A stretch of DNA of 40,044 bases, from the NCBI RefSeq assembly GCF_019656235.1, contig NZ_BPLL01000015.1, positions 1 to 40,044 on the forward strand, given 5' to 3'. Shown piece by piece: positions 1,440-32,825 of this stretch. Below the pieces are notes generated by a model. That model had not been told where the DNA came from and did not search any database. It saw only the letters and a program-made list of their open reading frames with translations. The stretch's first letter is position 1, and every line of letters begins with the position of its first letter. Made by a program: the position numbers and the translations under genes. This stretch comes from Apilactobacillus xinyiensis (GTDB lineage Bacteria; Bacillota; Bacilli; Lactobacillales; Lactobacillaceae).

Positions 1440-1451
1440 CATTTTTCCTCC

Positions 1452-1555
1452 AAAAAAAGCCGCCAAGTCTGAGAGACCTAGCGGCTACATTTACAGTAGA
1501 TGAGTGTAATTTATCTACAATTCGATTACCGACTTACTAGCCTCTCTGGACTAAT
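1452..1555 (-). promoter_or_regulatory. PyrR-responsive attenuator leader of pyrFE
   Basis: On the minus strand the leader contains AGTCCAGAGAGGCT (complement of 1539-1552), which matches the conserved PyrR-binding loop exactly. About 50 bases downstream is a terminator hairpin (1458-1486, outer arms AGCCGC and GCGGCT) followed by seven T residues (1452-1458). Between them lies a further hairpin with arms GTAGAT and ATCTAC. The arrangement is the standard one in which UMP-bound PyrR stabilises the anti-antiterminator and causes termination before pyrF. Confidence 0.9.
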
Positions 1556-1576
1556 TTAAAATCTTTATTGTTGAAT

Positions 1577-32397: not shown

Positions 32398-32436
32398 AAA
32401 AAGCATTGATGAATAACAAATTCATCAATGCTTTTT
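32398..32436. terminator. Bidirectional terminator
   Basis: A strong hairpin (arms 32398-32413 and 32421-32436, core GCATTGATGAA/TTCATCAATGC) with T runs on both strands. It ends the dehydrogenase gene and lies just past the 3' end of the tRNA-like gene on the minus strand. Confidence 0.85.
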
Positions 32437-32441
32437 TATAT

Positions 32442-32513
32442 TAGTGAGCTGTGATGTTCCGAACACCATCTTCTCAACAAAGGATTGAGTGCTCTACCTT
32501 GAGCTAACAGCTC
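32442..32513 (-). tRNA. Degenerate tRNA-like gene, formal anticodon CUU (Lys)
   Basis: Reading the minus strand from 32513: a perfect 7-bp acceptor stem (GAGCTGT with ACAGCTC), TA at positions 8-9, a perfect 4-bp D stem (GCTC/GAGC) with a six-base loop containing GG, a perfect 5-bp anticodon stem (CTCAA/TTGAG) with loop TCCTTTG, a short variable loop, and a 4-bp T stem (GGTG/CATC) with loop TTCGGAA. All stems are kept, but U33 is C, A58 is G, the D loop is short and the 3' end reads ACTA rather than ACCA. It may be a pseudo-tRNA or a tRNA-like regulatory RNA. A promoter and a terminator frame it. Confidence 0.6.
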
Positions 32514-32532: not shown

Positions 32533-32562
32533 TATTTAACCATAATTTATTAAAAATATCAA
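32533..32562 (-). promoter_or_regulatory. Likely promoter of the tRNA-like gene
   Basis: On the minus strand TTGATA (complement of 32557-32562) and TAAATA (complement of 32533-32538) are 18 bases apart. A transcript would start about 13 bases before the acceptor stem, the usual distance for tRNA genes. Confidence 0.45.
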
Positions 32563-32636: not shown

Positions 32637-32714
32637 TTGTTTTATTTTTTAGAATTTATAGTAATATTTGTAGTTGTTAGTATCATTACTGTTTTCATCA
32701 GAAGACGTAAGTAG
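32637..32714 (+). CDS. 25-aa single-helix membrane peptide (first of two)
   Basis: A TTG-started ORF preceded by AAGGAG with eight bases between. The product is a hydrophobic helix with one glutamate (MFYFLEFIVIFVVVSIITVF) and a positively charged tail IRRRK, a layout that would place the tail in the cytoplasm. It resembles type I toxin peptides and regulatory membrane peptides in general form only. A second peptide of the same length follows 33 bases later. No family is recognised. Confidence 0.5.
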   Translation: MFYFLEFIVIFVVVSIITVFIRRRK

Positions 32715-32747: not shown

Positions 32748-32825
32748 ATGTTCGAAAAACTATGTTATACACTAATAGTAATTGCGGTAATTATTGTTTT
32801 ATCCGTGTGTTTTATTTGTTATTAA
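32748..32825 (+). CDS. 25-aa single-helix membrane peptide (second of two)
   Basis: An ATG-started ORF with GAAGG upstream. It begins MFEKLCYTL, continues with a strongly hydrophobic helix (IVIAVIIVLSV) and ends in FICY. It has three cysteines and no charged tail. Same length as the preceding peptide, but not an obvious copy. Both would be cotranscribed, followed after 32 bases by the L,D-transpeptidase gene. Function unknown. Confidence 0.45.
   Translation: MFEKLCYTLIVIAVIIVLSVCFICY

Follow-up and report, generated by a model that had tools for sequence, protein, structure and literature searches.

Non-decoding tRNAs are already known, and two described systems are close to the gene considered here. 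In S. aureus, three of the five tRNA-Gly isoacceptors, extra copies that exist beside normal ones, carry changes in the T stem and at G18-G19 that are consistent with weak EF-Tu binding, and these non-proteinogenic tRNAs could thereby supply cell-wall synthesis (PMC4052509). The same source presents MprF as an enzyme using lysyl-tRNA outside translation and relates the proposal that it recognises the aminoacyl group directly, more than the tRNA body (PMC4052509). In B. cereus, tRNA-Other is described as having a Trp anticodon, being poorly charged with lysine in vitro and absent from polysomes, and being proposed to lie inside a longer regulatory RNA; its abundance is low, its transcripts are longer than a tRNA and its gene adjoins a pathogenicity island (PMC3399842).

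The gene compared here with these systems (hereafter the odd tRNA) lies on the minus strand of a 40,044-nucleotide stretch of Apilactobacillus xinyiensis, analysed as a whole and called the window (Table 1). A sequence-only reading had singled it out as a tRNA-like gene with intact stems and broken invariant bases. The stems are indeed intact: the acceptor (GAGCTGT/ACAGCTC), D (GCTC/GAGC) and anticodon (CTCAA/TTGAG) stems pair completely and the T stem (GGTG/CATC) contains a single G-U. The fold of the window RNA is better than that of its shuffles (z -2.4), 4 out of 200 of which equal it. Two of the reported loop changes, C in place of U33 (loop TCCTTTG) and a D loop of six bases (AAGGTA), are confirmed, and the anticodon loop further carries U37 instead of the usual purine, a change absent from the earlier list. 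The reported G58 is present in the window when the T stem is taken as four pairs, but it is confined to the window's two-genome clade, since the other 14 Apilactobacillus genomes have A58 in a UUC(A/G)AAG loop. The 3′ end (A-CTAA), previously counted as a defect because it reads ACTA, is no defect, as none of the 30 tRNA genes examined in the window's genome encodes CCA.

Table 1. Coordinates of the odd tRNA, its altered parts and its predicted flanking elements in the window (R1, covariance model built on 8 of the 16 Apilactobacillus loci)
Feature	Positions	Strand	Evidence
tRNA-Lys(CUU)-like RNA, G1 to A73, 69 nt	32445..32513	-	Rfam tRNA, 40 bits; R1, 103.2 bits (model built partly from this RNA); 16/16 genus genomes
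Anticodon loop UCCUUUG: C33, anticodon C34 U35 U36, U37	32478..32484	-	Sequence; same in 16/16 Apilactobacillus
T arm reduced to 15 nt, with a stem of 4 bp (GGUG/CAUC) whose G-U is pair 50-64	32453..32467	-	Sequence
Probable promoter: TTGATA (32557-32562), 17 bases, extended -10 TGG-TTAAAT (32534-32539)	32534..32562	-	Layout in 16/16 genomes
Hairpin terminator immediately downstream of the RNA; probably also serves the convergent gene on the + strand	32398..32436	-	Terminator scan

The tRNA covariance model supports the assignment, as a permissive Rfam scan of 351 bases recovers the tabulated interval at 40.0 bits against a cut-off of 29. The locus is absent from two Rfam scans run with default filters, one of the window and one of its own genome (49 tRNA matches, none on contig C15), an absence that we attribute to the filters. 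ARAGORN places a tRNA-Lys(CTT) at 32444-32513 (minus) and labels the gene as a regular tRNA-Lys, as it does at 14 of the 16 Apilactobacillus loci given; it misses the A. ozensis locus (L058) and its likely equivalent in G009. Compared with an elongator tRNA, the odd tRNA has the cloverleaf with paired stems, but U33 followed by a purine at 37 is replaced by C33 and U37 in 16/16 Apilactobacillus genomes, and the five-base-pair T stem closed by G53-C61 gives way at all 16 loci to a T arm of 15 nt, interpreted as a 4-bp stem and a 7-base loop.

The promoter previously claimed upstream of the gene fails as a match to the consensus and is supported as a layout. A consensus scan finds none on the minus strand upstream of the odd tRNA, because the -10 hexamer is TTAAAT; comparison of the upstream regions reveals in all 16 Apilactobacillus genomes a TTG-initial hexamer, 17 bases and an extended -10 (TGG-TTWAAT) ending 19-48 bases upstream of the gene. 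The first hexamer is TTGATA or TTGAAA in the window's two-genome clade (5/6 to consensus) and TTGCAT in the other 14 genomes (3/6). The hairpin terminator proposed downstream on the same strand is found by the terminator scan, also marks the end of the convergent gene of the aldehyde dehydrogenase family, and is paralleled by a T run downstream of the odd tRNA in each of the 16 genomes. The predicted promoter and terminator flank the gene closely on either side. For A. kunkeei, public RNA-seq data exist (GEO GSE205998) in which reads from tRNAs were detected but left out of the comparison (PMC10496945).

Pfam assigns three neighbours in the window to the aldehyde dehydrogenase family, the L,D-transpeptidase YkuD family and the phosphorylase superfamily, and a neighbouring gene of 465 aa is 93% identical to its A. 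ozensis counterpart. The immediate neighbours in the window's clade differ from those in the other 14 Apilactobacillus genomes, which have a transporter-like gene upstream (14/14) and a reductase-like gene downstream (13/14, missing in G002), both labels being interpretations of the proteins made without Pfam. Two adjacent hydrophobic frames of 25 codons, read by eye and divergent from the odd tRNA, lie at 32637-32714 and 32748-32825 (+) of the window, the first preceded by an AAAGGAG site; they could encode small membrane peptides. Elsewhere in the window, a PyrR binding site is found at 1451-1566 (-) (Rfam RF00515, 58.3 bits).

The odd tRNA is present in 16/16 Apilactobacillus genomes. Its 75-base core is identical in 11 of them, and the other five contain four near-identical forms. 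Core identity exceeds that of the 120 bases upstream in each comparison made: 0.99 against 0.86 between G000 and G009 (0.70 for the 100 bases downstream), 0.88 against 0.51 between the window's clade and the 14 others (downstream, 0.53) and 0.98 against 0.63 between two other groups (downstream, 0.72). The anticodon loop UCCUUUG is the same throughout the genus. Between clades, D-stem pair 13-22 is C-G in one and U-A in the other, and anticodon-stem pair 31-39 is A-U or G-C, both sides differing each time; all 132 cells of the genus alignment A1 (8 of the 16 loci) are paired. Two doubly changed pairs are not unusual in this alignment, being reached by 165 of 500 shuffles, and the wider alignment described below is therefore the stronger test.

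These observations bear on the possibility of a decaying tRNA pseudogene, which the sequence-only reading had kept as its alternative. The altered invariant bases, the two default Rfam scans that missed the locus and the predicted status of the RNA itself would all be compatible with decay. A pseudogene is nonetheless extremely improbable and is contradicted by the comparison of genomes, in which the gene is conserved far beyond its flanks in 16/16 relatives, its stems are compensated and its promoter layout and terminator are kept. The relatives carry the same odd tRNA and no normal tRNA at this site, and the stem changes keep pairing, which supports the earlier suggestion of a tRNA-like RNA that has taken on another role. 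In 13 of the 16 genomes one contig carries the odd tRNA and, on the same strand some 18-24 kb away, the normal tRNA-Lys(CUU), while the two are on different contigs in G000, G009 and G011; this proximity may reflect an old local duplication.

Against 22 sources, R1 gives 103.2 bits to the window RNA, from which it was partly built, 42.8 to the genome's own tRNA-Lys(UUU), 37.6 to its tRNA-Lys(CUU) and 28.1 to the next tRNA. Because the next-best matches are lysine tRNA genes, the odd tRNA most likely derives from a lysine tRNA. R1 was then run over 301 family genomes, followed by a pattern search and by a second covariance model, R2, over 397 genomes. With R2, RNAs of this type are recognised in five Lactobacillaceae genera, in 29 of the 397 family genomes and at 31 loci. 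Carriers are 16/16 in Apilactobacillus (g1), 2/2 listed in g32 (one with two copies), 1/1 in g34 (two copies), 1/1 in g36 and 9 of 10 in g26, the ten being those listed in the pattern search while the 397-genome sample may contain more. Members score 77.8-88.9 bits with R2 against 61.7-66.2 for canonical tRNA-Lys, the weakest carrier of the 397-genome scan being G009 (75.3 bits). Members served to build R2, and its threshold of E 1e-14 was placed so as to exclude canonical tRNA-Lys, so that more divergent members may have escaped it. Among 398 genomes sampled across the class, R2 picked out the window's own genome and, in two more, only a canonical tRNA-Lys, and a DNA search of 301 family genomes gave a lone 23-base match outside the genus. 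A phage or plasmid origin was considered and set aside, since neither a search of phages and plasmids at E 0.01 nor one of viral contigs for the exact core pattern gave a match. Two carriers have a second copy. In G048 (L250 and L275; C1:823676 and 825531), two copies stand 1.8 kb apart, the second with C48 and not U48. In G080 (L167, C2:242447-242526), a second odd lysine tRNA lies inside a small tRNA cluster adjoining a serine-rich repeat protein frame, a site that is perhaps a genomic island.

The wider alignment, A3, has 16 rows from the five genera, 5 of them from Apilactobacillus; G154, G214, G245, the second copy of G048 and 11 Apilactobacillus loci were left out. RNAalifold run on it gives the cloverleaf unprompted. 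Double changes that keep pairing occur at 14 of 21 pairs, 99.1% of 331 cells are paired, and the 78 doubly changed cells compare with 26.4 +/- 4.4 in shuffles, none of 500 reaching 78.

The 31 loci have a common anatomy: all have the anticodon CUU, U37, A73 and A15, and pair 50-64 is non-Watson-Crick in every one. U48, and with it A15-U48, is found in 30/31, the exception being the C48 copy of G048. The invariance of CUUU and AGAU is partly by construction, because the discovery pattern fixed CTTT and RAGAT for the loci found with it; pair 50-64, A15 and the D loop lay outside the pattern, and pattern matches without a locus were checked through R2 only. C33 is found at 20 loci (16/16 in Apilactobacillus, 2/3 in g32 and 2/9 in g26) and U33 at the other 11. 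GG at 18-19 is missing from all 15 loci outside Apilactobacillus, while the 16 Apilactobacillus loci keep G18-G19 and have a T arm of 15 instead of 17 bases, with U at the 53 position in all five of their rows in A3. The 14 canonical lysine genes compared have a Watson-Crick pair at 50-64 and retain both G15-C48 and GG.

This anatomy can be set against the two described systems. Like the S. aureus tRNA-Gly, the odd tRNA is supernumerary and has, judging from its sequence, a weak EF-Tu contact pair in the T stem (pair 50-64, 31/31), although the T-stem pairs changed differ from the staphylococcal ones. Replacement of G18-G19, the other staphylococcal trait, is seen at the 15 non-Apilactobacillus loci and fails at the 16 Apilactobacillus ones. 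The odd tRNA also differs by its lysine anticodon, U37, C33, its lineage and an acceptor that is only proposed. The sequence-only reading had compared the gene with tRNA-Other. This likeness stands in kind, both being tRNA-like genes. It does not extend to the anticodon (Trp in B. cereus), the predicted transcript layout or the genomic setting: the odd tRNA has a close promoter layout in 16/16 genomes and a terminator directly after it, and is genus-wide. tRNA-Other is thus a precedent in kind, and the S. aureus tRNA-Gly are closer in anatomy.

The odd tRNA coexists with the normal lysine tRNAs. A pattern combining the lysine loop and the variable region finds a canonical tRNA-Lys(CUU) in 30/30 genomes checked of the five genera and a canonical tRNA-Lys(UUU) in 28/30, the latter giving no match to the pattern in G011 and G012. 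As the normal tRNA-Lys(CUU) is present in all 30, the odd gene is an extra one. The two canonical tRNAs of the same genome are its nearest tRNAs by R1 among the 22 sources, with similar acceptor and D stems, but they keep U33, A37, G15-C48, GG at 18-19 and a T stem of five Watson-Crick pairs. The conservation, structure and redundancy of the odd tRNA and the alteration of its anticodon loop and T stem are established by these comparisons of gene sequences.

The CUU anticodon of all 31 loci and the U33 retained in 11 of them would fit an unusual but working decoder of AAG, active at a low rate or under stress. C33, U37 and a weak T stem are each expected to impair decoding, and a normal tRNA-Lys(CUU) is available in the 30 genomes checked. 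We consider such a decoder distinctly unlikely overall: AAG decoding is possible where U33 is kept and unlikely in Apilactobacillus. Since PrrC and PARIS-type anticodon nucleases cleave tRNA-Lys, a known target of such enzymes, the altered anticodon loop (C33, U37, G38) could also mark a nuclease-resistant spare or decoy tRNA-Lys that evades or titrates them. This is very unlikely, as a spare would be expected to remain able to decode, and here alterations also affect the T stem and U33.

A regulatory role was also weighed, in which the CCUUU of the loop would base-pair with AAAGG, a complement resembling a Shine-Dalgarno sequence, or the RNA would act as a T-box ligand, as proposed for tRNA-Other. 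The loop UCCUUUG, identical in 16/16 Apilactobacillus, the occurrence of C33 in three genera and the precedent itself (PMC3399842) point in this direction. Positions 32, 33 and 38 vary in the genera outside Apilactobacillus, therefore a six-base anti-Shine-Dalgarno pairing is not kept, and the retention of an entire tRNA fold would be needless for a short antisense loop. Among the T-boxes of the window's genome, the 20 of 27 that were read by eye showed no lysine specifier and no evident lysine gene. Taken together, a regulatory RNA of either type is unlikely. A T-box neighbouring the odd tRNA in G131 was examined; its specifier, by eye, looks like the histidine codon CAC and the preceding gene is his-related, and the proximity was taken as a coincidence. 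Three consecutive T-boxes, followed by a frame resembling a transporter substrate-binding protein, are found at L237 (G000:C16:4871-5611), and the triple recurs in G003 (C1:102026-102768).

No close neighbour gene is common to the odd-tRNA loci of different genera in the neighbourhoods compared, cross-genus matches being only at the family level (HAD-like genes in G040 and G050 match at 28%, and reductases in G076 and in Apilactobacillus at 30-33%). Because the genomic site differs between genera, the odd tRNA should act in trans.

LysRS recognises its tRNA through U35, U36 and A73. The odd tRNA retains the cloverleaf, A73 and U35/U36, while the features changed are those of elongation: U33 to C in Apilactobacillus, purine 37 to U, a weak or short T stem and, in the sister genera, the loss of G18-G19. 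We therefore favour, with a probability of roughly 0.4, a supernumerary and selectively kept tRNA-Lys paralogue acting outside ordinary decoding, which would be charged with lysine and kept off EF-Tu, with phosphatidylglycerol, through MprF, as the likeliest acceptor. Transcription, charging, avoidance of EF-Tu and use by MprF are the steps that we infer. The odd tRNA would be transcribed alone from its own promoter, trimmed, provided with CCA and charged by LysRS. The weak T stem would prevent capture by EF-Tu, and the lysine would pass to a non-ribosomal acceptor. It counts against this reading that Apilactobacillus keeps G18-G19 and that the 11 of 31 loci with U33 might still decode.

The proposed link to MprF is correlative. 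All 29 carriers encode an MprF domain (PF09924) without interruption, the open frame measuring 858-924 aa. Among 33 other genera, each represented by one genome in which the odd tRNA has no match, 18 have the same domain, and the odd tRNA is therefore not needed for MprF. By Fisher tests, which take no account of kinship, the association is not significant at the genus level (p=0.14) and reaches p=6e-6 at the genome level. In G196, the only g26 genome listed that is not a carrier, mprF is cut by an in-frame TAA within its catalytic domain (PF09924; L305, C3:29800-33300) into two in-phase open frames, 750 and 110 aa long, and the three best R2 matches (63.8, 62.4 and 61.7 bits) are canonical lysine genes. 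This joint loss of the odd tRNA and of an intact mprF is suggestive, but it comes from one genome, where the stop might reflect the particular strain or the sequencing. Counting against MprF, the deletion of tRNA-Other in B. cereus left membrane lysylation unchanged (PMC3399842). A broader possibility is that the 31 loci represent lysyl-tRNAs of one family, dedicated to the lysylation of membrane lipids in at least five Lactobacillaceae genera, extra tRNA-Lys that would avoid EF-Tu and the ribosome and supply MprF, in parallel to the staphylococcal glycine tRNAs; we regard this extension as doubtful.

A description of this odd lysine tRNA was not found in the open-licence papers searched, and a role in lipid lysylation would be new, if true. 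The odd tRNA is also relevant to annotation, as ARAGORN passes it as an ordinary tRNA-Lys or misses the locus. For most cases, the way in which charged tRNAs are diverted from translation to wall-building enzymes has been called somewhat unclear (PMC4052509). Given a short lysine tRNA present throughout a genus, with a promoter of its own and a full normal set alongside, removing a single gene would put such a diversion to the test. The conservation of a lysine-type tRNA with altered decoding parts points to delivery of lysine, or of a signal, elsewhere than to the ribosome.
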